From NCBI GenBank assembly GCA_003024175.1, contig MDYQ01000240.1, positions 1-64,000 of the forward strand: a DNA stretch of 64,000 nt, given 5' to 3'. Positions 2,836 to 64,000 of the stretch are shown one piece after another. This DNA is from Planoprotostelium fungivorum (Eukaryota; Evosea; Variosea; Cavosteliida; Cavosteliaceae). A program made the translations under genes and the position numbers. Each line of letters starts with the position of its first letter. Within the stretch, counting starts at the first letter, position 1. The notes under the pieces were generated by a model that saw nothing but the letters and a program-made list of their open reading frames with translations, did no database searches and was not told the DNA's origin.

Positions 2836-7912
<5,077 letters not shown>

Positions 7913-15664: not shown

Positions 15665-18600
15665 ATGAAAAGCATACTCTATGCACTCCTCCTCACCTTC
15701 ACTCTCTGTCACGCTCAGGTGCCTTTTGCTCTCATGAGAGACCCCTGACCCCCTCAGGTATATCTTCTATCCGTATCGACCTTCCCTCGCACTGGTTTCT
15801 TCTCTCCCGTCTACTCTTCACCCAGTCCGGCTTATTTCTCTTTCGCCACCAGTATACCTAATGGAAAGGGTGAAGACAATCTGGGTCTCGTATTCAAGGC
15901 CACGTGTGACGGTCAACTCGTATCGCAGGATTCGATCTGTTCCACTTATCAATTAGCTGCCTACGGACCCAACTTAGCCCAAGATCTCTCCTTTCCAGTC
16001 AACATTACGGTGACCCAAGCAGGTGTCGTGTTCTTTGACTCTGCATCATCTCATGAACCCGTCATCTCTGTATTCTGATACGAAATTCAGTCGTCATCAA
16101 TGTTGTACCTGAACAAGATTATACCGTAGACCGGATCAGCTATCTGTCGTTCAAATCTTCGCTACCCCATTTTATTGGATATAACACGACGTCCTCACCA
16201 TTACAAACCAATTTTGAAAAGTATGCCCTTGTTCGGGCCAACAGTACGACGAGAGCCCTGGGGTCAGGTGATGTGATGATCTGACGTGCGGGCGACACTG
16301 ACTTACGATAGAATGCCCCTTTTATCTGCGCCCTCAGGAGAACATCAAGACGTTTTCCCTGAGCGTGCAGAATTATGCTTCGTACAAGTATCTGGGTGTC
16401 ACTTATCCTTATATTCCGTTGATCTGTGCGATCGATCAGCCCGCATTTCTTTTGAGAGATGGTTCCTCAGTAAGGGTGAGCGTCTCTCGTCATTTATCAC
16501 ACCATCTCATCGCCTCTCACAGTTCTTGGATGAATTTACGTGCGTCAACTTTGCAAATCAGGGGGACTTGACCTACACTCTCGTATCTGCTCAGTCGAAT
16601 CCTACCACCGTCATATCTTCCTCAGGAAACTCATTTGCAACGTGCACCAAGGTTGGCAGTTCGATCGACACGTACGCTTTGATCAAGATTCAAACCACCA
16701 ATCTGTACGGCAAAGTATACATCAACGGTTTCCCATACAATGCATCTCCCTCGCGAGCCATCGATGTGGCTATCAACTGCGGAAACCAGAATCAGGTTTC
16801 TATCTCAGCCGTTGTCCATCCAGGTGAATCGTGTTGCATCTCTTGGCTGACTTTGACTAGCTCAAACGATCGACATCAGCCCTACACAGCCTCAACTATC
16901 TCTGTCGAATACAGTTGCACGAATCAATTTTCCGGCGGGATTATTACCACCAACTGATAGAGCCGACGCTCTAGCCATGGCATCAGGATATACATCTTGG
17001 TGAGACTTCATGATATCTCAGCACTCTAACGTAAGGATAGTTCAACCTCTCCTCTGACTGTGGATTACGGTGGCTTTAGCAATACCAAATACAGTTGTGA
17101 GTGCAAAGTTTTTACTCGACATCATTGACCTGTTCAGTGTGTTACACAGTGACCACTGAGACGGTTGTGGACGTACCCTCTTGGCAATCGGCTTTCGTCA
17201 TCCGACCACCTAGTGGCTACTGCTTGAAAGCCGATGGTATCCCCAGTCCAGCACAAACTGTCATCAGGCTCAGCTCTTTGAATGCATCTACATTCTCTTA
17301 CGAAGATAGCAACACTCCTCTCTACACGATCACTTGTTCCGACGATATCTTGTATGTATCAAATATTGTGAATGCTGCCAGAATCGTCTTCACATTAGGT
17401 GAGTTTTCCGCATTTATTCCAATTCGAATTGAAGAGAAACAGTACAAATTGACCCTTTGGGCGTATACGGAAAGACGTACGATATCAACGGTCTCACTGT
17501 CCTTCAGTACCCTCCATTGTCCACATCAATTGGCGTTCGCTCCTTCACCACCACCGGAACCGTCTCTCATCTATCGATCGCCCGTCAATCGTTGGTAAAT
17601 AATAAGCGTGAGGTTAGTGGCAGCTTTCCACCTACTGTCAACAATCTACTCACCCCTGGACCCGCTTCTCAGTTCATCGTGGTTGTCACCGGACAAGGAC
17701 AGTTTACCAATGTCTTAGGAACCTGTGAGTCGCAGTGAGATGATGATTCGTATGTGACGCAACGATAGACATCGACCCGGTGGCGACATCCGCAGAGAGC
17801 TCCACTTCATCGTCAACGGAGAGTACCACTTCCACCGAGAGCTCTACTACATCATCAACGGAGAGTACCACTTCCACTGAAAGTACTACTTCTTCCACTG
17901 AGAGCTCTACTTCCACTGAGAGCTCTACTTCCACTGAGAGTACTACATCGTCAACGGAGAGCTCTACTTCCACTGAGAGTACTACATCGTCAACTGAGAG
18001 CTCTACTTCCACTGAGAGTACTACATCGTCAACGAAGAGCTCTACTTCCACTGAGAGTACCACTTCCATTGAGAGCTCCACTACATCATCAACGGAGAGT
18101 ACCATTTCCACTGAGAGCACTACATCGTCAACGGAGAGCACCACTTCTACAGAGAGCACCACTTCAACCGAGGGCACCACTTCTACAGAGAAAACCACTT
18201 CAACCGAGAGCACCACTTCCACAGAGAGCACCAATACATCGTCAATGGAGAGCACCACTTCCACTGAGAGCTCGTCGAGTGAATCTACCACCTCTACCGT
18301 CAGTACAACCTCTAATGACATCACCACCTCTTCTGCAGAGGGCTCGAGTTCTTCATACTCTGAGAGCACAACATCATCGGCAGAGACTTCATCTTCATCA
18401 TCTACGGAGAGCGCGAGCGTCAGCACGGCTTCCTCAGATAGCACATCATCCATGGATATCGACGACATCGATTCCACTTCAGAGGCCGAGACATCATCTG
18501 AGATCGAGCCAACTTCCGTGGACATGACATCAACTGTGAGCACGCTGCCTTCAACAACCACATCGAGCTACAACACCAGGTCCTCTTCAGAAGAAATTCT

Positions 18601-18784
18601 GCCCACTGTATCAGAGAGATCATCTACCAGCGACGACAACACGGTTTACTCCAACAATGGTATGTTCAGTGACGCCGCGACGACATCTACCGAACCATCT
18701 GGCGCGCTAGCGAGCAGTGCAGGGACTGTCACAGCATCCATGTTCTACATCGTGATCGTGATGATACTCGCCGTCAACTTGTGA
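15665..18784 (+). CDS. secreted Ser/Thr-stalk surface protein, family member A
   Basis: Start ATG at 15665; exon 1 encodes only a signal peptide (MKSILYALLLTFTLCHAQ). Exon 2 carries GFFSPVYSSPSPAYF, shared with the paralogues. Later exons contain the family blocks VPSWQSAFVIRPPSGYC, DGIPSPAQT, NTPLYTITCSDDILYVS, YGKTYDINGL..LQYPP and FIVVVTGQGQF. The reading frame stays open through all joins when the 16840s intron is taken with its acceptor at CTAG|CTCAAACG. A long stalk of Ser/Thr/Glu repeats follows (17780-18540), then a hydrophobic end (MFYIVIVMILAVNL) like a GPI-anchor signal. The stop ends at 18784. Probably a cell-surface adhesion, coat or recognition protein; no outside family recognised. 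Confidence 0.85.
17800..18300 (+). repeat. stalk minisatellite (TTSTESTTSSTES-type) in gene A
   Basis: In-frame tandem units of 12-45 bases based on TCTACTTCCACTGAGAG and variants code for a Ser/Thr/Glu stalk. The antisense strand is also open for 285 codons here because the repeat has no stop in that frame; this is a by-product of composition, not a gene. Confidence 0.9.
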
Positions 18785-19735
18785 AGAGATGGAAGATAAA
18801 ACGATTCACGACCACCTTCTTCATCGACACCACCTGATCTTACAGTATCCTATTCCATTATTGCACCCTTCGAACGTGAATATGTGAGGTCGATCATCCG
18901 ACCAGTCGCGAGAATTTGACTGGTGAAGCACTTGATATGTCTGTGATCCAATCGAATCGTTCATCTCACCATCCTCGACATCGTAGTGATATCGAACCGC
19001 AGTACCTCCTCGAGAGTGGTCTCTTATATAATTCAGCTTCAAGAGGTTGCATTGAATGTGACGAGGGGAAAAAATGAGCGCAACAACGTCAATCACGAAC
19101 AGAGATGACGGTCTCACAACATTTTGAGAACAGTTCCCTCTAGTATCTCTTGAACTCTACTTCTTCTCGAGCGTGATGTGCCTGAGGAATGCTCGTTGTT
19201 TGCTGTAGGACGTTCAAATGAAATTCATCATAGATCATCGCGATCCGACCTGGCTCGTCTTGATACACCTATCACTGACGATTGGAGAATATCATTTATA
19301 GCACAAAATCGACACATGTAAGTAGAGCGCTTGATGAAACGAGCTGAGGTAGTCACGTGAGAAAGACAATCAGTCATCTATCTCAAATATTACTTGAGAA
19401 GCCATGATCATCAGGGAGTGCCTAATGCGATATGTTTGCGTTGTATCTCGGAACGCCCTTCCCCAACATGTCTGTTAGTATACAGAGAACCTCACTTTCG
19501 TCTAATTGACAGTCGCAGTGTCATCGTCCTCTGTACCAAACGGCTCCACGCGGAGGAGATTGACGTTCGGCAGCGCAAAATCACAGGAGTGAGTGATTCA
19601 TCGACAAAAAGATGTCTTTCTCGAGAGTTCTTTCATTCGGTTCCACTTTTCCGCTGTCTATTCGGTCTCGTTGTTTGTGTCAACAGCCAACAAGAGTTCC
19701 GTCTGGCCTCCTTCATTCTCCCTCCCAATCGCAAG
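18785..19735. other. intergenic between paralogues A and B, no gene seen
   Basis: About 950 bases with no supported gene. It must contain the gene A 3' end and the gene B promoter. An open frame runs into gene B from 19394, but the signal-peptide Met at 19736 fits the family better. Confidence 0.5.
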
Positions 19736-22700
19736 ATGAGAAGCACACTCTGCCTCTTGCTCTTCGTCACCCTCTGTCAGGCACAGGTATGATACTCTCT
19801 CGTGCTATACAACTCACCTCCTTTCAGAAGTACATCTTATCCATATCAACCTTACCCTCCACCGGCTTCTTCTCCCCCATTTATTCTGCACCTTCTCCGG
19901 CTTATTTCGCTTATTCTACTACCGTCACTTATGGATCTCCTGCTCGTGTGGCACTTTTCTGCGATGGTCAGCCGATGCTCTCGGCTTCAGCCACATGCTC
20001 CACATTTCAAGTTGTAGTATACACGGCGAACAATCAGACGCTTCAGCTGTCCCCTCCTGTCAACGTCACAGTGACCCAAGGGAGTGAGCGATCATCATGC
20101 GATGCCTTGAACTGAAGCGTCTGCAGTCATCGATAGCATCGCGGTTGGACAGGTCTATAAGGCCAGCGGCCCCACATTCTTGCAGTTCAACTCCACTTTA
20201 CCGTATTCCACCGGTGTCAACACCGCACCGACGGGTGCTTTGTTCCAGAGATCATTCGCAGTCGCTGCTAACTCGACGACCAATTTCAATGGCTTAGGTG
20301 AAGTAACACATCTATGACTGATCTGATGATGAACAGTGTACCCCATCTATCTACCACCACAGGAAACAGTCAAATCGTTTTACGTGGATGCGAATACTGT
20401 CGGGGTTTTCAAGTACCAGGGAGTCACTTATTCCGGTAGCTTATCAGCTTGTACTACAGATCGACCTGGTTACGTATTGAGAGACAAGATAACGCCTTTG
20501 GTGAGTCGTGTTCTCATCATCTGATCGTCGTGCACACATCATGGACTGAAAGTCTCTAGATCGCTGACAGCTACACTTGCACTTTAGTTTCTCGAAAAGG
20601 ATTTTACAACTTCACCATCGTTACATCTGATTTTCCCCCCACCGCCGTCGTCTCATCTTCTGGCACCTACATCGTCCCCTGCATCACCGTTGGCAATTCG
20701 AGCAACACATATTCTCTCATCAAATTGAACGCGACCGATCTGTACGGCAAAGTCTCGATCAATGGATCGATCTACGATTTCGACCCTACAAAAGCTTTTG
20801 ATGTGGCGATGAATTGTGGAACGAGCGATCAGATTGTCATCTCAGCTGTCATCACACCAGGTGAAGATATAATTCGATCGTGATAGTATGATCGCTGAAT
20901 GAATTCACAGTTCAAGTGATTAACGTCGATGCGTCACAGCCGTCAGTGTCGCTGGTCACCTCGGCGGCTCAGATCAATTATCCGGCAGGAATTATAGCAC
21001 CGAACAGTGCTTCAGATCCTCTGGCTCAATTGGTCGGATACACATCATGGTGAGACATGGAAATGAGATCTGATCACGTCCTGACTCCATCGTAGCACTT
21101 CCTCTCCCACAACTCTGAACTTGGGAGGTACTTACAGCTACCAGTACAGCTGTGAGTCGAAGAGATATTTACCATCGTCACTCACTCGTTCAGTGTGTTA
21201 CACGATGACTGACGAGTCAGTCGTCACGGTTCCGTCGTGGAAAGCAGCTTTCGTCATTCAGCCACCCAGCGGTTACTGTTTGAGGTCTGATGGCATACCC
21301 AGCCCGGCTGGAACGTCCATCACACTCCGCTCTTTCAATTCATCCACCTTGTTTTATGAAGATGCCAACACTCCCCTCTTCACGATCACTTGCTCGGACG
21401 ACATCTTGTACGTCTCACAATTTGTACAAACCGCTGACGTGACGTTCACTTTGGGTGAGAGTCATCCTTCGAAACACGATGGAAGCTGAGATTCACAGTG
21501 AGAATCGACGGACAAGGTACATACGGACAGACGTATGACATCAACGGTCTCTCCATCTTTCAGTACCCACCCATCACCACATCGGTTGGTGTGCAGACTT
21601 TCAGTGTTACTGGAACCACTTCTTACCTGTCTGTCGTCACTGCCTCAGTTTCGACTTCGAAGCGGAGCGTCGTCACCTCGAGCACGACGACCGCCAACAA
21701 TCTGAAGTCGAACGGACCGGCTTCTCGATTCATCGTGGCGGTCACGGGACAAGGACAGTTTATCAACAATTTGGGAACCGGTGAGTTGAATTGAAGTCAC
21801 GATGCGTGTCGTTGACGTGACATCAGACGTCGGAGTCAATTCGGGCTACGACACTTCGTATCAGTTTGTACCCGCCAGTACGACTTCATCTTCATCCTCC
21901 GTAGAAAGCACAACCTCTTCGTCCACCGTGGATAGCACAACCTCTTCATCCTCCGTAGAAAGCACAACCTCTTCATCCTCCGTGGACAGCACAACCTCTT
22001 CGTCCACCGTGGACAGTACAACCTCTTCGTCCACCGTGGACAGTACACAGTCTTCGTCCACCGTGGATAGTACAACTTCTTCGTCCACCGTGGATAGCAC
22101 AACTTCTTCGGAGAGCTCAAGTACAACTTCCACGGAGAGCTCGACTGAATCGTCCACCGAGAGTTCAACTTCCTCCACTACAGTGGATAGCACAAGCTCT
22201 ACGGATAGCTCAACATCATCATCCACCGAAAGCGCAACTTCCTCCAGCTCTACAACTTCCATGGACAGCACAACAACCTCCTCCACCACAACTACATCCG
22301 TGGAAAGTACAATGTCTACGGACAGCACAACCTCCACCGAAAGTAGCACATCATCCACAGAGAGCACGACTTCATCATCCAGCTCTTCTTCTTCGACGGA
22401 CTCGACAGCTGCAAGCACGTCCTCATCTTCCTCATCCTCATCTGCGGACAGCACATCTTCTGACCAAGATACAACCTCAGAAGATGACACTACCTCTATT
22501 GAGACTTCTGCCAGCACACAGCCGTCAAGCACACGGTCTTCAAGCACTGCCACATCTAGAACAGAGAGCACAACAACGTCCAGCGTCAGCTCTACGACAT
22601 CAGCGGACGTCTCTACAACTTCCTCAGCAGGCTCGTCCATCACCGAAGTTGTCACAGACTCTACCAGCAGTGACACAGCGAGTGATGCATCCACGTCCAG

Positions 22701-22806
22701 CTCATCTTCGGATACTTTCACTCACACAGCAACATCCGTGAACCATGTGGACGCTGTTCAGCCGTTCATCTTCTTCATCGTGGCCATTCTCTCCATCTTA
22801 TTGTGA
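19736..22806 (+). CDS. secreted Ser/Thr-stalk surface protein, family member B
   Basis: Exon 1 (19736-19786) is the signal peptide MRSTLCLLLFVTLCQAQ. The intron is 19787-19827, and exon 2 (19828-20083) has TGFFSPIYSAPSPAYFAYS. The other family blocks follow in order: VTYSGSLSACTTDRPGY, DLYGKVSINGS, INYPAGIIAPN, VPSWKAAFVIQPPSGYC, CSDDILYVSQ, YGQTYDINGL..FQYPP and FIVAVTGQGQF. The stalk is a Ser/Thr/Val/Asp repeat (21880-22500). The C-terminus is hydrophobic (FIFFIVAILSILL), probably a GPI-anchor signal. It lies in tandem with A, about 950 bases downstream. Most Cys and aromatic positions are shared with A and C, so a common fold is likely; the stalk sequence is not shared. Confidence 0.87.
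21880..22140 (+). repeat. stalk minisatellite (TTSSSTVDS-type) in gene B
   Basis: About nine in-frame 27-base units coding for TTSSSTVDS or TTSSSSVES. The sequence differs from the stalk repeats of A and C, so each paralogue has built its stalk from its own unit. Confidence 0.9.
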
Positions 22807-31193: not shown

Positions 31194-33879
31194 TTATACG
31201 GACAGATCGTAACTGATGATGGCCGCCCTCAGCTGCGGTGTACCCAGGGGAAAGTTTCTCTCCGGCAGATTTTTCTCCTTGTACTCGTCCAGCACGGCCT
31301 GCATCGAATCGAATATCTTCTCTCTGTCCACCGTAAACTTCCACTTGCCGTCCTGTCTCATCGATGCCACTCTCATGTGTGCAAAGACGCTCTGATTCCT
31401 CAGGCTGATCGTGTAGTAGCCCGGTGACGAAGAGAAGCGAACTAGAAACCTCCCGTGTGATAGCTGAGCTTGCACTTCTTCCGTGCTGAGAAAACCGTGG
31501 AACCAATTGGGCTTGACAACATCGGATAACTCGGCGAACGTCGTAGCTTCTGGCCGTGTGTCATTGGGCAGAGCGAGAGGAGAGAACCACTTTACAAATT
31601 TGTCCCAAATTTGGAGGGACACGTTGCCGTTGCCCATCGATAAGAAGGGTCTGACCCATTCTAACTGCGCCGGCGTCGCTGCCATGATGTCTTTGGCCGC
31701 CTGACTGAACTGCCCCCAGGTCATCACACCGGCCGGTCCGAATTTTGCCGCCACGGCAACTTCAGGCGTGATCAACTGAGCCGCCGGGGCCTCCACTTTG
31801 GCGATCGAAGGATGTGGATCGAGCAAGGCTAACGTCTGTTTCATGGTCCGCAGCATGACGTCCACCGTGGCGAAATCGGGGCGTTGCTCTGGATCATGGT
31901 CCCAGCACTTTTCGGTCAGATTGGCCAGCGGCCAGTCGGGCTGGAGGTCCGGACGCTGCCCGGCGGAGACGCGCGCTGCGATCTCTGCGCCGAATACGAT
32001 GTCGTCCCAGACGTGCTTTCTGGCTTGGAGCTCCCATAATCTGGTGAAAGGTCAGTCATGTGATGGAGATGGAGATGATCGTGATCGTGATGTGTACGTG
32101 ATGATGATCTGATGATGATTCGATGTCATTTGATGTCATTTGATGTCATTTGATGTCATTTGATGTCATTTGATATGAAAATGAAATAAACGATATTAGA
32201 CGATGAGAATCCACATGAAATCAAGTGAGATCGAATCGAAATGAGAGACTCACATGATGGCATACGAATACACATCCACCTTGAACGTGTGATCCATCTC
32301 ACAAAGCTCTACCCTCCATCAGCTACCTCCGTACGTACGGTACTCACCGGGTGCCGCGTACGAGGGCGTCCCCAGTACCACCGTCGAACTCGAATCATCC
32401 TCCCCCGCCGATAATCCGAAGTCACAAATTTTCAAGTGAATCTTCTCTGAAGTCAACTCGTGGATGAGAACGTTGGCCGGCTGCAATCGTCAGCTCCACA
32501 CGCCGCGAGCACAGTCACCTTCAAGTCTCTGTGTTCGACTCCTTCACCGTGGAGGTAGGTCATGCCCTTGCTGATCTCCGTTGCGATATCGATGATCATG
32601 TGATTGTTGAATTTCATGTCTGATTTGTGGATGAGAGCGGATAAATTGCCGCCAGAGACAAACTCCGTGACGAGACAGAGGACGGAAGTTGAATTGGGCT
32701 TCTCCTTCTTGTGACAGAAACCGTACTGAAATTTCAGTCAGATCTACGTGAAATTTCGACTCGAACGTCACCATGGTAACGATCTGTGGGTGTCTCAATT
32801 TGGATAAGAGGTCGATCTCAGATAAGAAATTCTGCATCTCTTCTTCGTTGTCTATGTCAGACATCGTTTTCACGGCCACCAGCGTATTCTTCAGCCAGAT
32901 ACCGCGGAATACCGTGCCCGAGGCCCCTGCTGGGGGTAAGTACCGTACGTATATCGTCCCAGTGGGCCTCACCCCTTCCCAGAGCTTCTCCTTCGATGGC
33001 GAGATCGGCTGAAGCGATCTCTATACCCGATGGCGCCCCCGTCAGTTGTTTGGCACAGACTTTCTGATGAGGTTTAGGGTTTAAAAGTGATGGACAGCTG
33101 CACCGCTAATTGTGTGATCCAAGCTCTCTTCTCTGTGGGATCGTCCACTCGAAACTGTGTGGGCTTGATGTTGCCAGTGACTGGATTGAGAGACAACGTC
33201 CTCTCATCTGGCTCGAAGACTTTGTACTTCTTTAGTTCTGTGATCATCTCCTTTGGTGACTCGTCCTGTACACATTAAATGATGAATGCCTCTTTGGATG
33301 GAAAATGATACGATATGGAATGATATCATGTGAAACGAGGGAAGAATGAGGGATGAGGGATCTACCGATTCGTTCTTATATAAACAGAGGGCGTCTCCGA
33401 TCAGAATGCCGAACATCTTCTTCCAGCTGCTTCCAAACGTGCCAGCCACTTTCTTATACAGCGTTCCAGATTTTCTGAGAGCGCCATGTCTTCCCGTACT
33501 TCGATCGGTCTGTCCGACGGATCAGATTTCTCAACGAATCTCCACTGGAAAATGTCATATCTTTCCATCGACTCACGGCAGTTGAAAGCCTGGGCGATGT
33601 CTCTGAGATGGAGCTCGCCCGGGATACCGAGTACTGCTGCTTTCTTAATGTTCCCAACGAGCCTGTGGACGTAGTGGCAGGATCGCTCTTACTCGTGGAG
33701 GTCGTTGTAGGTGAACTCTGTGTGAGTGCAGGGGCCGCCTTCGATGATGAGATGTTGATTGACAAATCTTTCAACTTTGCATCGACTGAGGGCGAACGAT
33801 GGGGAGATGTATCTTCTTCTAGTTCGTGTGAGCCATCAGAATGATTAGAACCATCGCGATACGCACCCGAACCCACCAT
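31194..33879 (-). CDS. SHK-type kinase: Ser-rich N-term, PH domain, kinase, C-terminal SH2
   Basis: The minus-strand exons give a Ser-rich start (MVGSGAYRDGSNHSDGSHE). A PH-like domain follows (KSGTLYKKVAGTFGSSWKKM, then TQFRVDDPTEKRAWI), then a kinase with GASGTVFRG, VAVKTM, YLHGEGVEHRDLKPANV, ICDFGLSAG and GTPSYAAPELCE; all catalytic residues are present. The C-terminus is an SH2 domain (WFHGFLSTEEVQAQL, GRFLVRFSSSPGYYTISL) with the FLVRFS phosphotyrosine-binding Arg. Kinase followed by SH2 is the SHK family of Dictyostelium. The PH part and the kinase are read as one gene because exons are continuous and spacing is small; the join near 33480 needs a splice I could not place. Likely acts in signalling at membranes. 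Confidence 0.82.
32122..32172. repeat. five tandem copies of the decamer TTTGATGTCA in an intron
   Basis: Perfect 10-base units inside an intron of the kinase-SH2 gene (about 32044-32250). A recent local expansion. Confidence 0.85.
32726..32771 (-). other. stereotyped short intron with paired GAAATTTC blocks
   Basis: A 46-nt intron in the SHK-type kinase between RHPQIVTM and YGFCHKKE. Minus strand: GTGACGTTCGAGTCGAAATT, then CACGTAGATCTGA and CTGAAATTTCAG. The two GAAATTTC blocks are each self-complementary. Confidence 0.8.
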
Positions 33880-48068: not shown

Positions 48069-51044
48069 TTACAGGGCCACAACGGCGATGAGAACTGCCA
48101 AGACAATAGAAGCGCCCATAGTAGAGGCGCTGCTTCTCGTGGCAGCATCTGGGGCTCCAGCCGTGGTAGTCAGCGTGACGTCAGCGGGGCCGTTGGTGCT
48201 GGCGGCCGTTGTAGACTGAGCCGGCTGGCTGGTGGCAGCTCTCGTGGTCGAGCTCGAAGTTTGGGCGGGAGAGCTCGACGACGTTACCGTTGGAAAAGTG
48301 GCGGGAACTGCATACTGGAGACCCTGGGGGGTGATCTCCAGGGTAGGAGGGTTCTGAGGGTAACCCGCAGCGATGGTGATGGTCTGCTGCGAGCTGGCAA
48401 ATTTGCCCCAGTTGTCGATGGCAGTGAGCGTGATGGTGTAAGTGCCCGGCTGCGAGTAAGCGTGGCTGATGAGTCGGTTGATGGTCTGAGTGCTAAACTT
48501 GACTTGGTGTCCATCTCCAAAGTCCCACTCGAAGGTGATCGTGTCCAAATCGACGTCGTAGGTTGTGGAGGCGTCGAATTCGATGTATTGGCCGGCGACG
48601 TAGTGTTGAGCGTTGATCTTGAAAGAGGGGACGGGGGTGTTGGAATACCAGTTCTGTTCCATGAGACGAGTGTAGGCGGTGCCAGTGAGACCGTTGGCGT
48701 CGGTGACGGTCATGATGGCGAGGAAGTTGATTCTCTCTCCAATGTGGGAGTTGGCGCCCATGCCTTCCAAGGTGGTGGTGACGCTCTGCTGGTTGGTCGA
48801 GAATGATCCGGGGTGGTAGTGGTTCGTGTGAACCATGTAGATGTCCCAGAAGTAGTTGTAAGGAGCAGTGCCGCCGACCACGTTACCGGAGAAGGTGATA
48901 CCAGCGTTGTTGTTTGTGGGGTCATAGGTGGACCAGCTGTTGAACGAGTCTACGCTACCGGCCGCGGGCGAGGTGATGATCGCAGTGGGGACTTCCTTTC
49001 CAACGACGACGACGAGGGTGGAGTTGACGGTGTACTGTCCATTGTTGATCCAGCAGGTGACCGTGTAGGTGCCGTCCTTGGTATAGACGTGCGTGGGGTT
49101 GGGATTTACGACCACGGCGGTGGAGTCACCAAAATTCCATGCGGTGAAGTTTGTCAAAACGGTCATTCTGTCCTTCGAGTTATCGGCCGAGAACTGAACG
49201 GTGAGGGGAGACAGGCCGGCGGTGACGTTAGAAGAGATGGCGATGGTGGGGGGTCTGGCTCCTCCCTGGTAAGACAGACAGTGGATGACTCCCTGCAGCA
49301 GCTCCATGTAACACATGTCTCCATTCTGGGGGTTGACCTCCAAATCGACGACGGGCACGGCCAGCGGTAAAAAGTCGTACTGGTCTACCTTGACGTCATT
49401 CTGAGAGGTGATACTCTTGATCCATTGGGTTCCGTAGTCAGAGAAGAAGACTTGTCCCTGGAAGGATGCGGGGTAGTTGGTGCCCGAGTAGAAGTTGACT
49501 CCAGAGACACAGTTACCGGTGAAACCGGCACCCAAGACGTACTGCTCCCCGTAGAGACCATCCATATCGTGAGTGTAGCGAGACCAGTAGTAGGTAGGGT
49601 GCTGGGTCTGGACGTGGTTGTAGACGTACTGGCAGTTGATGGCGGAACCGTCGTCAGCCGTGGGGCGAGTGATGTTCTTGTTGGTCAGGTCGTTGTAGAC
49701 GGAGTCTCTGTATCCAGCCATGGGTTGAGGTCCTGAAATCAGATTAGCTCGTTGTAGACGGTCGAATTTCGATATTTACCTTCCCAGCAAGGCCAGCCAA
49801 AGTTGAGACCGGGCTGTGTGGCGGCGTTGATCTCCTCGTAAGAGCCGAGTCCGACATCACCAATGTATGGAACACCTGGACCTCCAGCTTGCTTCTCCTC
49901 CACGGTGGCGGGCCTCAAGTTCATAGAGAAGGGGTTACGCAGTCCCATGGCGTAGATTCTGGCGCGGGGAGCTCTCAGATCCATGTTGGGAGTGCAGTAG
50001 GGGTTCAGTGTCTTAAACCCTTGGTTGGAATTGCAGATACCGTTACCGGTGGCGGGGTCGACACGGATGAGCTTTCCACCCAGGGTGTCTTTGGATTGAG
50101 ACTTCATGGCGCCCATCTCTTGACCGGGCCAGATGTTGGGACAGACGGACGAGTAAGGGTAACGCTGCTGGGGCTGTCCAAAGTCCATGACATCGGTATC
50201 GAAATGAGATCCCTCTCCGAGGGTGATGAAGAGAGAACCGTCGAGACCCATGGCCATAGCACCTCCGGCATGAGAGGAAGAGCAGAGGACGTTGGAGTCG
50301 AGGTATGTCTGTCCGATAATGAATGATTTGGAGACCATCTTGCCAGCGTTGACGACGAGTCTAAGCACACGGACGAAAGAGACGGTGTTGACGGCGGTGT
50401 TGGGGCCGTAGATGGAACCGTTAACGTATGAGACGTAAACAAATGGGTTCTGGGCGAAGTTGGTGTGGGTCTCGATGGACAGACCTCCATAATCTCCCCA
50501 GTTGTGGACTTGGTCTTGGAAGTCATAGACGGTGTTGATGGCCTAATCGAAGAATCAATAAAATGAAGAAGAGGAGGGGACGAACCTGAGTGCCGACATC
50601 GACGTGGAAGACGATTCCGGCCTTGGCAATCACAAAGATCTCATTGGTGTTATCGGTAAAGGCGTAACCAGTGAGGGTGTTGTAAGAGGTGGGGGGGTTC
50701 ACACCGATGGTATAGTCAACAAAATCCTCAGCATTAGAGTTGGCCTTCTGAGTCTAACCGAACCCGTCAGCGACCACGTGTCGGAGCTCTTAATGACTCA
50801 CCGTTCCTGTACCTGGGAAAGAACCTCCCTTCTTATCGTTGGCGAGACAAGCGCAGGGGTATGGAGATGGGCCGTTGACGGCGATTCCTCTCCAGTCGAT
50901 ACAGCTACCTCCGGCCTGGTTGTTTGACTGCCTGGCTTGGCAGTCTCCGCTGAGTGGCTCGACGGCAATGTTGTCCGTCTTGGGCTCATTGATAGCCACT
51001 GCGAGTGCAAAGATGAATAATGTGAGAAGAGCTGATGTCTTCAT
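48069..51044 (-). CDS. secreted PQQ-type sugar dehydrogenase with PKD-like domains, GPI-anchored
   Basis: Start at 51044: MKTSALLTLFIFALAVA is a signal peptide. A Cys-containing N-terminal segment follows (GGSCIDWRGIAVNG, YPCACLAND), then a beta-propeller of the glucose/sorbosone dehydrogenase type: NWGDYGGLSIETH, SSHAGGAMAMGLDGSLFITL, GEGSHFD, LGGKLIRVDPATGNGI, IYAMGLRNPFSMNLRP and INAATQPGLNFGWPCWEG. The large last exon (48069-49732) holds two PKD-like Ig domains (FTAWNFGDST, FEWDFGDGHQV..HAYSQPGTYTITL). It then has a Thr/Ser stalk and a hydrophobic C-terminus (SIVLAVLIAVVAL), probably a GPI signal. About 930 residues. It likely oxidises sugars at the cell surface with a PQQ-like cofactor; cofactor and substrate are inferred. 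Confidence 0.88.
49733..49779 (-). other. short intron carrying an internal CTACAACGAG block
   Basis: A 47-nt intron of the PQQ-type gene, GTAAATATCGAAATTCGACC on the minus strand, then GTCTACAACGAG and CTGATTTCAG. The CTACAACGAG block is the reverse complement of the 3' end used by other introns. Confidence 0.75.
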
Positions 51045-59059: not shown

Positions 59060-61824
59060 ATGAAAGGCGCTCTTCCTCTCTTCCTCCTCTGTATCAGTCT
59101 CTCTCAGGCCATTGTGAGCATAGGTCTCCTTCACCTTCGTCGTCTCACATCTCTCTCAGGTCTATGAGGCGGTGATCACTGTCGTTCCAACCACCGGCTA
59201 CTTCTCTCCCATCTATAGGGCAGACCCACCCGCCCTCTTTAACATCCAATATTCGGGAGGTTTTGACCCCTCGGTCTTCATCAAAAACTTCTGCGACGGA
59301 AAACTGGTCGATGGCTTGACACCCCCCTGTACCACCTATCAAATCGTTTTTGGCACTACTGGTGTTGAGCCTGTCGAGACCCCTATCGTCCTCACTGTGT
59401 TTCAGACAGGTGAACACATACATCATTCATTCCGTCGTCGTCCACACCTCACCGTCTTCTATACAAACTGATGAAAACAGATATCGTTAATGTCACTCTG
59501 GGACAGAACTACACCTCTGAAAACCCCACCAGCTACCAGTTCTCCTCGGATGTGCCCTACCTCTATTCCTACAGTACCTTCGATTCCCCCTTGATTTTAT
59601 ATTCAGTGGACTTCAGTAACAAGATCTTCGTGCCTGACAACGTCACCTTGGTAACCACGAGCTCAGGTAAACACTTGTGACCGTGGATTCGCTGACGTTC
59701 ACATCAGACTACCCGCTGCACGCCTCAACCTATCCTAAGACATTCGGAATTCTGCAAGCGGATGGCTTTTCTTTCGTGTACGAGGGAGTGACGTATGACA
59801 CCGAGCCCGTCGTCTGCTCTTCACAAGACGCCGTCGTTCTCGTGGATGAATCTCAATCGAACGGCTACAACGTGAGTGGATCACATCGACGTGGCACGTG
59901 TCGACCAAATGAATTGAAATTTTCAGTTTCTACCCGCTCGGTCTTGCAAGGATTTCGCATCCATGACCGGGGCGTACAATGCTACGGTCATCTCCACTCA
60001 GACACCTGCCTCGCTGAACGTGTCTACGTCGGATAGCTACACTGTCCCTTGTCAGACGTACGGCAACTCGACCGCCAACTATGCTCTCGTCAAGCTGGTC
60101 AACACCGACGTCTATTCCAAGGGAGGTGTCATCGACGGTCTAAAGGTCACCTCTCAACCTGGAACGTTCGATATCGCATACAACTGCGGTGCCGAGAGCA
60201 GCATCAGTCTGTCCATTCAAGTGAACGGACCCTGTGAGATATCGACGTCTCCTGATGCACCCTCTCACATTCCACAGACACGCCCGTCAACATTAGCGCC
60301 AAGGTAGAATCGACTAGTTATTCAGATGGGTTTTACCAGATCAATGTGCCTGCTGGGATTATCTCGGATGCATTCAGTAGTGATCTACTGAAGCGGCTCG
60401 GAGTGCAGACTTGGTGAGAAGAAATCAGTCGTGGGTCTCCGTTGAAATAGGACAGCTCCACGGAGATGTCCGTCAATTATTTCGGTGGCATCAATTCCGC
60501 CATCTTTGATGGTGAGTCTCTGCACACGTTGAACTTGAGCTGATGGACTTCAGTGTGCTTCACGGTCAATGACAGCGTGAGCGTTGATGTCCCCGCCTTA
60601 TACAGTTCTTTCGTCATCCAGCCACCTGAGGGATACTGCATCAGAGGAGATGGCATTCCTAGCGATCCATCGACCTCAGATGTCTATCTGTTATCCCAAA
60701 ACTCCGCCTCTTTCTTCTACGAAGACATGAACACGGCCTTGTTCACTGTCACTTGCTCCGATGACATCTTGACCGTACAACTGGATGAACTGAAGCCAAT
60801 GACGCTCAACTTTACTCTCAGTCAGTGACGTCGCACACACATCATCGACCGACAGAATGACAGTTCCCATCCGCGGACAAGGAAAATACGGACAGACCTA
60901 CGACGTGGATGGGCTCCTCGCCATTCAGTATCCTCCCCTCAAGGCTCCTGTTGGAATCTTAGCAGCCAACGTCACTGGATCTGCCTACAGCCTCCTTCCC
61001 GTCGTGAATGTAAATATGCTAGGAGGAAAGAGGACAGTTACCAACAACCTTTTGACTGGGAGCAACAGCCTGCAGACCAACACCTCTCCGCTGACTCAGT
61101 TCGTCGTGCTGGCGGGGGGACAAGGACAGCTGACGGTCAACGTGGGCACCGGTGAGTCATCGTGTGAAGACTTTGACGTGACACAATGTCAGTCGATGGA
61201 GTGAACGTCGATTACGACACCACGTCGAGTACATCTTCAAGCAGCTCTACGTCTAGTACATCTTCCACCGAATCGAGCAGTTCCACCAGCTCCGAGGAAT
61301 CGACCAGCTCTACCAGCTCCACGAGTTCCGAAGAATTGACCAGCTCGACAAGCTCCGAAGATTTTACCAGCTCGACAAGCTCCGAAGAATTCACCAGCTC
61401 TGAATCCACCAGCTCCACCAGCTCCACTTTCGATTCTTCTGTCAGCTCTACTACACCAGAGACCAGCTATGAAGAGTCCACCAGCGCTGGGGAGTCTTTC
61501 ACCGATTCACCCTCTACCTCCACCATCACCTCCACTTCTCCCGTACAGTCAACCAGCTCCACTACTTCCGTACAGTCAACCGGCTCCACTACTTCCGTAC
61601 AGTCTACCACCTCTTCCACCTCTTCCACCTCTGCTGTCGTGACTTCGTTAGAGAGTGAAGAGAATGGTACAGACTCATCCGCCACAACCAAGACATCTGC
61701 CTCTATGTCTGTGTCTTTCACAGACACCTCTGTGTCACCCACAGAGAACGTCGCGAGTGACAGCTCTATGGTCAAGGCATCTATCCTCTCTGTGGTTGTA
61801 ATGGCCCTTTTTTGTCTTTGCTGA
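59060..61824 (+). CDS. secreted Ser/Thr-stalk surface protein, family member C
   Basis: Start ATG at 59060; exon 1 is the signal peptide MKGALPLFLLCISLSQAI, as in A and B. Exon 2: TTGYFSPIYRADPPALFN, FCDGKLVDGL. Later blocks match the family: VPALYSSFVIQPPEGYC, GDGIPSDPST, MNTALFTVTCSDDILTV, YGQTYDVDGL..IQYPP, FVVLAGGQGQLTVNVGTGE. A Ser/Thr/Glu stalk (61226-61640) and a hydrophobic end (SILSVVVMALFCLC) follow; the stop ends at 61824 and AATAAA lies near 61864. It is more diverged than A and B are from each other and sits 36 kb away, so it is an older or relocated copy. Confidence 0.86.
61226..61420 (+). repeat. stalk repeat (STSSEE-type) in gene C
   Basis: In-frame repeats of ACCAGCTC(C/G)ACAAGCTCC, coding for TSSTSSEE units. 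The unit differs from those in A and B. Confidence 0.85.
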
Positions 61825-62155: not shown

Positions 62156-64000
62156 ATGAAACAACCCATGGCTCCCAGTGGAGCAAAGGATGATGACGTC
62201 TCAACATCCAGTTCGCCCCATTTCGCCCCACCGTCAACACGAACTGAGCTGGCCACAGTCGTGGGGTCTGAAGAGAAGAACGTGGATGGGCTGCCCGACG
62301 GCTGGTCTTGTGTAATGCACACGAATGGTCTTCCTGTCTTCTATCACGAACCATCTGAGGTAATCGAAACGTTTCGACAGGATCTGTCTCTCAAAATTTG
62401 ATCGATCGATTGATATCAGAGATCTGATTTGATTGAAGGTCGTATCATGGACGAAACCTTATCGATTATCGATAGAGAGAGATAGAATGGACGTTGGATC
62501 TATTCCATCAGTTCTGTTCGATCACAAACCACCTCCTTCCATCTTTCCTAAATCAGCATCCAGAAGGTCTTCCTCCAATCTGATGGGACACCATTCGATG
62601 GCATCGTCTGTCGAGGACTTGAGTTCCTCGATTGAAGGAAAGGATCTCGATTGTCCATGTTGTATCCAATCTCATCGACGCAGGTCCAGAACCGAAGAGA
62701 ATGAAAACAGATGCCAGTGAGGATGCATATCCATTCTCAGAGACATCATCGACGACCTCCACTCCATTCGAAGCCGAGTTGAACACTGTCCTTTCCGTTC
62801 TCAGCAACGATGAACTGACGAGAGACAAGACGGAAAATCTCGACACAAAGAAATCCAAGAGAGGTTCGTCTTTCGACTCTCACACACACGATCATCCTCA
62901 TATCACACGATCGAATCACATCATCCTCACTTCCTCTCAGTTCGAACGAGGAAGAGTGACCGAAGTAAAGACAAGCCGTTCCACTTCACGACGGAAGGAA
63001 AGACACCGGTGAGTGCCCTTTTAGACTACTGCAGAGGTGTCATGAAGACCGTCCCCCGTTACGTCTCAGCCACTCGAGGTGATCACCGGCGGTGATGAAG
63101 TCACGTGACCGTTGTAGACGACGCGGCTAAGCCATTTTCCACCGAAATTTTCATTCACGACAAGCTGTACGGCAGGGGAGAGTCTTCCACGAAAAAGCAG
63201 GCCAAGCAGGTGGACACTTTCACGTTCATTCTATAACGTTGTGAAATTTTACAGATCGCTGCGACTCAGGCACTCACCGTATTGGTCCCGGATTTCGACC
63301 CCAAGAGCATCTGCCTCACTACAACGGGTCTCTTACCCGCCCTCCACGCTGGAGAAACCGTGGGAAGAGAACGTAAGTACGCACCGCACGGCGTGCCCGA
63401 CGTCAGATTGACGTTCCCAGGGGAGGATCCCGTAGAGATATTGAGGAAGAGCAGACCAGATCCGAATCTGCTGCAAGTGGACGACGAGATCGCATTGTTC
63501 TGTGGCCCGCCCCACTACAAATCGAGCAATCAGATGTTACACGAGTACTGCGATCTACATCAGTGTAGATTGGATCTGAGATACGAGATCATCAGCGCAG
63601 AAGAGGCACAGAAGAACAAGTGAGAGTGAAGAGAAAATCGAACGAAATCGATTGACTCGTTGTAGATCGATCGTGGGGGAGGTGACGACCAAGTGCATCG
63701 CAGACTTGGACGGTCACGTGATGGAGGTGCGTCTAATCATATTTTCCATGCACGAGTGACATACGCAGGGTTACGGTAGAAGTAAGAAAGAAGCAAAGAT
63801 GAGAGCCTCTCAGCTGCACCTGAAAGAGTTGTATCCACACATCAACTCGTGGGGCAGACTGCAGGACGTCTTCTCGTGTCGTCAGGTGAAGAAACAGAGA
63901 AGAGGGGTCGCTCATCTTTAAAAGGAACCCAACAGCAAGTTCAACGTGAAGATGCTGGACAGACTGAAAGAAGAGATGAGGAAAGTTCGCAGGGAGAGAG
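62156..64000 (+). CDS. DGCR8: DGCR8/Pasha-like Microprocessor subunit (3' end outside window)
   Basis: Exon 1 (62156-62359) ends inside a WW domain that continues at 62439: LPDGWSCVMHTNGLPVF, YHEPSE, VVSWTKPY. The same place in animal DGCR8 reads LPDGW..[31 protein letters not shown] follows, where DGCR8 has SSIPCLHY with the haem-ligating Cys; here it is Ser. Then an acidic linker, dsRBD1 (ALLDYCRGVMKTVPRY, KLYGRGESSTKKQAK, TVLVPDF), dsRBD2 (SNQMLHEYCDLHQC, GYGRSKKEAKMRASQ, LYPHINSWGRL) and the C-terminal Drosha-binding-type helix (NVKMLDRLKEEMRKV; DGCR8 has HILSKLQEEMKRL). One intron (63620-63665) ends TGACTCGTTGTAG. In animals this protein recognises pri-miRNA in the nucleus and positions Drosha. 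The gene is open to the window edge. Confidence 0.88.
63620..63665 (+). other. stereotyped short intron in the DGCR8-like gene
   Basis: A 46-nt intron in dsRBD2 joining EEAQKN to KSIVGEV. It starts GTGAGAGTGAAG and ends ATTGACTCGTTGTAG, the same 3' block as the minus-strand genes. Confidence 0.82.

Follow-up and report, generated by a model that had tools for sequence, protein, structure and literature searches.

Does the DGCR8-like gene at the end of a 64,000-nt stretch of Planoprotostelium fungivorum DNA (hereafter the window, part of the 75,064-base contig C192), from a species which we take to be the same as Protostelium aurantium, belong to a Microprocessor of the animal type? In animals the Microprocessor is composed of two DGCR8 and one Drosha, and a 2023 review described DGCR8 as seemingly restricted to animals (PMC10605862). 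Drosha-like enzymes were called animal-only in a study which stated that Dictyostelium discoideum lacks genes of this description (PMC4894637), and another paper gave no obvious Drosha homologue for this species (PMC6161686). The host is an amoebozoan (Amoebozoa, Evosea, Variosea, Cavosteliida in the NCBI taxonomy), as the earlier note on this DNA had supposed, and it is in laboratory use. Sequence and fold comparisons supported the gene as an amoebozoan orthologue of DGCR8/Pasha, and the genome also has a gene for a Drosha-type RNase III, which strengthened the reading of an amoebozoan Microprocessor.

The DGCR8-like gene was composed of ten exons at 62156-64029 on the forward strand of C192, and its stop ended at 64029, 29 bases past the end of the window. 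In our gene model, nine introns (39-79 nt, GT-AG throughout) were removed to give a product of 465 residues, in which the motifs quoted in the earlier note (LPDGW, VVSWTKPY, VLVPDF, YPHINSWG and LKEEMRKV) were all present. The gene and its domains were located as follows.

62156-62359, 62439-62622, 62684-62863, 62941-63078 and 63118-63209, forward strand: exons 1-5 of the DGCR8-like gene.
63255-63372, 63421-63619, 63666-63726, 63769-63885 and 63925-64029, forward strand: exons 6-10 of the DGCR8-like gene.
62291..62462, forward strand: WW domain LPDGW...VVSWTKPY, matched to DGCR8 WW/dimerisation structures and interrupted by intron 62360-62438.
62499..62513, forward strand: IP-like motif SIPSV, downstream of the WW domain and without the cysteine of the animal IPCL.
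63006..63284, forward strand: dsRBD1, found by Pfam dsrm, with KKQAK in its second helix and two interrupting introns.
63549..63840, forward strand: dsRBD2, more diverged, then YPHINSWG, placed by DGCR8 alignment and helix-strand pattern.
63943..64000, forward strand: C-terminal helix NVKMLDRLKEEMRKVRRER, corresponding to the DGCR8 tail by alignment and predicted model.

The whole product had human DGCR8 as its top match in PDB (E=4.9e-21, summed over WW, dsRBD1 and dsRBD2), so the likeness to DGCR8 was not due to chance. The WW domain, IP-like motif, dsRBD1, dsRBD2 and tail helix followed each other as in animal DGCR8/Pasha (human 6v5b, 6lxd, 9asm and 2yt4); the earlier note had proposed this order, which stood except that the IP motif was recovered in part, as IPSV without the IPCL cysteine. 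A protein search gave four DGCR8-type proteins for comparison, in which the motif was IPSV (P0001, the NCBI protein of this amoeba), IPTL (P0002) and IPCL (the animal-type P0003 and P0004 from a spider). The IPCL cysteine, which is the haem ligand of animal DGCR8, was thus absent from the amoeba protein and from P0002, and it was not taken as a criterion for the DGCR8 family. The amoeba protein also differed from animal DGCR8 in a longer linker between the dsRBDs and a longer dsRBD2, and its BLASTP identity was 28% to P0003 and 24% to P0004.

The WW region matched DGCR8 WW structures (3le4, 1.9e-8; 4e5r, 7.5e-8), with Pfam WW at 0.0017, under Pfam's cut-off. Pfam dsrm was detected in two stretches of the product (4.1e-17); dsRBD2 as its own stretch had a weak PDB match to DGCR8 (0.52), and its helix-strand pattern was seen at residues 421-493 of P0001 in the predicted model. 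The earlier note would have doubted the assignment if the likeness had depended on the WW domain, and with the WW half left out DGCR8 (2yt4) was still first in PDB, at 1.5e-14 vs 1.5e-4 for ADAR2. DGCR8 was again the best in the fold comparison of the predicted model (VIA-align), whose rows covered model residues 270-497 only, with no WW match among them, and included 5b16, which is Drosha with the DGCR8 tail. The tail helix NVKMLDRLKEEMRKVRRER, residues 516-541 of the model, aligned with NLHILSKLQEEMKR of human DGCR8, and N518, L522, L525, K526, E528 and M529 were identical in all four proteins. In animals this helix holds Drosha, and the WW region is also used in Microprocessor assembly.

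Two parts of the gene model were less certain. Intron 62623-62683 was 1 of 12 listed pairs restoring the frame with a product of more than 450 amino acids, and its junction was identical in P0001, which differed from our model in a longer N-terminus and in retaining the 48-nt stretch 63373-63420 (GTAAGT...CCCAG), either an optional intron or coding. A retrained gene predictor recovered the gene from 62701 on. P0001 was present in the database as 'microprocessor complex subunit DGCR8-like [Planoprotostelium fungivorum]', and the DGCR8-like name of the amoeba protein therefore pre-existed there, as annotation. P0002, a second DGCR8-like protein near the amoeba one, came from jgi and nearly fills a 1,247-base contig, possibly from a transcriptome. 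The amoeba gene itself was also found, identical in its DNA, on a second contig, C140; matched pieces of C192 and C140 were 97.0-99.9% identical, and the two are probably haplotypes.

The earlier note had proposed to search the same genome for a Drosha-type RNase III, and one with two RNase III domains was found on C375, a contig of 143,007 bases separate from the DGCR8 contigs. The Pfam RNase III profile search of the genome gave 11 matches on C173, C375 and C8, plus one weak match on C466, and gene models were built by a small Viterbi predictor plus manual inspection. For C375 the second predictor model (one of five settings) was used, in which intron 5677-5830 (reversed locus) was placed manually with Drosha as a guide; the model had 17 introns of 37-154 nt. 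The product of 783 residues matched human Drosha in PDB over residues 318-762 in one stretch (7.5e-54, 186 bits), followed by the first non-Drosha chain at 81 bits and the best Dicer at 71.5 bits. The aligned stretch included the connector motif and the RNase IIIa insert, which was missing from the Dicers compared, and identity was 35.6% over 312 aligned positions in both RNase III domains, both of which retained EFLGD and the D..EAI(L/M)GA motif with the acidic residues kept.

Besides the tandem RNase III domains, connector and insert, the C375 enzyme had in common with animal Drosha (6v5b_A, 9asm_A) a CED-like region N-terminal to the nuclease domains. A PDB search restricted to this region gave three sequences to E 10, all of them Drosha constructs, with a best E of 0.0052, which is weak by itself. 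Pfam detected only RNase III models, and thus neither helicase nor PAZ, in the spliced model; the PAZ search of the genome, with matches on C92 and C208 only, carries little weight since split domains escape it. Differences from animal Drosha lay at both ends: the alignment ran into the Drosha dsRBD as far as residue 762, with no Pfam dsrm match, and the N-terminal region either was short or lay partly in an assembly gap. At about 6800-7080 on the forward strand of C375 24500-34400, upstream of the gene, unknown bases and a duplicated stretch were observed, so the modelled N-terminus is provisional. These comparisons supported the C375 enzyme as a Drosha-type RNase III, Drosha-like also outside the RNase III domains.

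C173 was considered as Drosha and rejected, being a Dicer with DEAD and Helicase_C domains whose RNase III part ranked Dicers first (127 vs 77 bits); because of this result, the PDB ranking could separate Dicer from Drosha. C8 gave a warning on the same ranking, for Drosha was on top here too (97 bits vs 73 bits for Dicer-2), with a margin of 24 bits vs 105 for C375. This two-domain RNase III (reverse strand, 4300-6300 of C8 21500-31400), with Pfam RNase III models in the part examined and a PAZ-end-like stretch upstream by eye, had long branches in the tree and was left undecided, as neither clearly Dicer nor clearly Drosha.

A tree, which the earlier note had suggested as a check, was built from 14 domain rows, with reference domains from four proteins only. 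By ultrafast bootstrap/Shimodaira-Hasegawa-like approximate likelihood ratio test (SH-aLRT), domain a of C375 grouped with domain a of Drosha at 81/86, domain b was placed without resolution, and C173 grouped with the Dicers (a 89/88, b 98/98). In the concatenated tree without C8 (now SH-aLRT/ultrafast bootstrap), the split of Dicers and C173 from Drosha and C375 had 99.4/100; with C8, Dicers and C173 had 95.1/96, and C8 fell on the Dicer side at 59.9/67. With so few references, the trees gave the grouping of C375 with Drosha moderate support, through domain a and the concatenation, which falls short of proof.

Other parts of a small-RNA pathway were revealed by profile searches of the genome, including ERH (39.2 bits, cut-off 25), Exportin-5 in two pieces (31 and 27.6 bits, cut-off 27), Argonaute pieces on C39 with equal-scoring pieces on C208 and C92, RdRP genes on five contigs, and the helicase-bearing Dicer on C173. 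The profile search for ARS2 stayed below the cut-off (best E 0.136).

With these parts, two DGCR8 chains would dimerise through the WW region, and the tail helix of each would hold the Drosha from C375. The complex would crop hairpins out of nuclear transcripts, which would then leave via Exportin-5, be cut by the Dicer of C173 and be loaded into Argonaute. We put at roughly 0.8 the probability that the DGCR8 orthologue works in this way, as in animals, with the C375 Drosha in a hairpin-cropping Microprocessor that amoebozoans and animals both received from their ancestor. From the sequences we infer that the two proteins would bind each other, cut hairpins and yield microRNA products, and that they may descend from an ancestor which Amoebozoa and animals share. 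If the animal model applies, the amoeba DGCR8 should lack haem control, because the haem cysteine is missing in P0001 and P0002.

The retention of the tail helix and WW region, which are parts of Microprocessor assembly in animals, together with the presence of Exportin-5, Dicer and Argonaute genes, argues against a reading in which both proteins are true orthologues without a microRNA machine, processing ribosomal RNA, messenger RNA hairpins or transposon transcripts, while microRNA-like RNAs, if there are any, come from Dicer alone, as has been proposed for Dictyostelium. We consider that reading unlikely, although the RdRP genes point to small interfering RNA pathways, a hairpin scan of the DGCR8-like gene found no autoregulatory hairpin, and Dictyostelium microRNAs are reported to be made by a Dicer-like enzyme plus RbdB (PMC4894637). 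Convergence, by which an unrelated RbdB- or HYL1-like protein with WW and dsRBD would have come to resemble DGCR8, is very improbable and was rejected, since DGCR8 was still first without the WW half; the tail helix aligned too. It would draw on the commonness of dsRBDs and WW domains, the divergence of dsRBD2 and the Pfam WW score under its cut-off. The PDB search without the WW half gave no HYL1 chain among 23 sequences to E 10, and to our knowledge PDB contains HYL1.

Animal DNA in the amoeba assembly, by contamination or misassembly, is hardly credible and was rejected in view of the two near-identical contigs carrying the gene, the amoebozoan database protein and the short introns of the C375 gene, which lies on a third contig; the draft state of the assembly (471 contigs, redundant ones among them) would speak for it. 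The window also has a kinase-like stretch followed by SH2, an order known from Dictyostelium. A horizontal transfer, by which either gene or both came from an animal or holozoan, is more conceivable and still quite improbable, since it would require two genes on different contigs, both with many short introns. The amoeba protein had 89.0 bits against P0003 and 65.5 bits against P0004, which are close together (249 bits), and P0001 and P0002 have in common a linker and an extended dsRBD2 that neither P0003 nor P0004 shows; because of these low scores and common features, vertical descent fits better than recent transfer. A transfer would find its support in the patchy distribution, with the Drosha-like genes stated absent from D. 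discoideum (PMC4894637) and a 2026 review identifying no DGCR8 in the pathogenic amoebae among the free-living ones (PMC13315211). Four sequences cannot date the DGCR8 gene.

Elsewhere in the window, a Ser/Thr-rich gene lies in a segment of about 3.3 kb (58544-61861 of C192) which had no counterpart at C140 5649-5774, the two contigs being near-identical in the rest of the compared stretch. Three similar Ser/Thr-rich genes, probably secreted or surface proteins, were observed at 16280-18784, 19597-22806 and 59671-61824; two of them share the stretch FVIRPPSGYC / FVIQPPEGYC by eye, and the third has repeats. On the reverse strand, the last part of a protein-kinase domain, scored below the Pfam cut-off, and then a C-terminal SH2 were found at 31194-32051, in the order of the Dictyostelium Shk kinases, and at 48069-50542 a glucose/sorbosone dehydrogenase-like frame adjoins a PKD-domain frame, possibly as one gene. 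Scans for tRNAs and Rfam families gave no matches in the window.

Among known amoebozoan systems, Dictyostelium DrnB plus RbdB likewise pairs an RNase III with a dsRBD protein; the sequences of DrnA and DrnB are Dicer-like, with a dsRBD at the N-terminus (PMC4894637), the likeness to RbdB being one of description only. Edelbroek et al. described Dicers, Argonautes and microRNAs in amoebozoans, the latter in all those examined, and the main text mentions neither DGCR8, Pasha nor Protostelium, with Drosha in a reference only (PMC11014262). In Acanthamoeba castellanii, ACA1_291000 (805 amino acids; 40% identity with human Drosha at E 2E-78) was listed for both Dicer and Drosha, the authors being undecided, and no DGCR8 was reported alongside in that review of pathogenic free-living amoebae (PMC13315211); compared by description only, it is Drosha-like as C375 and would fit an old amoebozoan Drosha. 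A Microprocessor pair in unicellular organisms is likewise known from Ichthyosporea (Brate et al. 2018, by way of PMC8061703), which are holozoans; PMC8061703 credits Drosha and Pasha to them, so that the Microprocessor is known from both these organisms and animals. Searches of an open-access library, with subscription papers outside its scope, revealed no publication on an amoebozoan DGCR8.

This gene extends the known DGCR8 family to a new supergroup, and the system as such is of a known kind. We know of no Microprocessor route in choanoflagellates. The route is described as absent from fungi (PMC9098223), and separate origins are commonly assumed for the microRNAs of animals and those of plants (PMC11014262). 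The earlier note had suggested that a Microprocessor-like pathway is older or more widely spread than thought; we infer that this may be so. If true, a free-living amoebozoan with both subunits would place the origin of the Microprocessor in an ancestor that amoebae share with fungi and animals, and the Microprocessor would be a trait lost, not gained, in several lineages. On balance we lean towards the view that amoebae like Planoprotostelium make hairpin small RNAs by the animal two-step route, which Dictyostelium, fungi and choanoflagellates would have lost. If amoebae do retain this route, haem binding by DGCR8 would be either a later addition on the animal side or a loss in amoebozoans.
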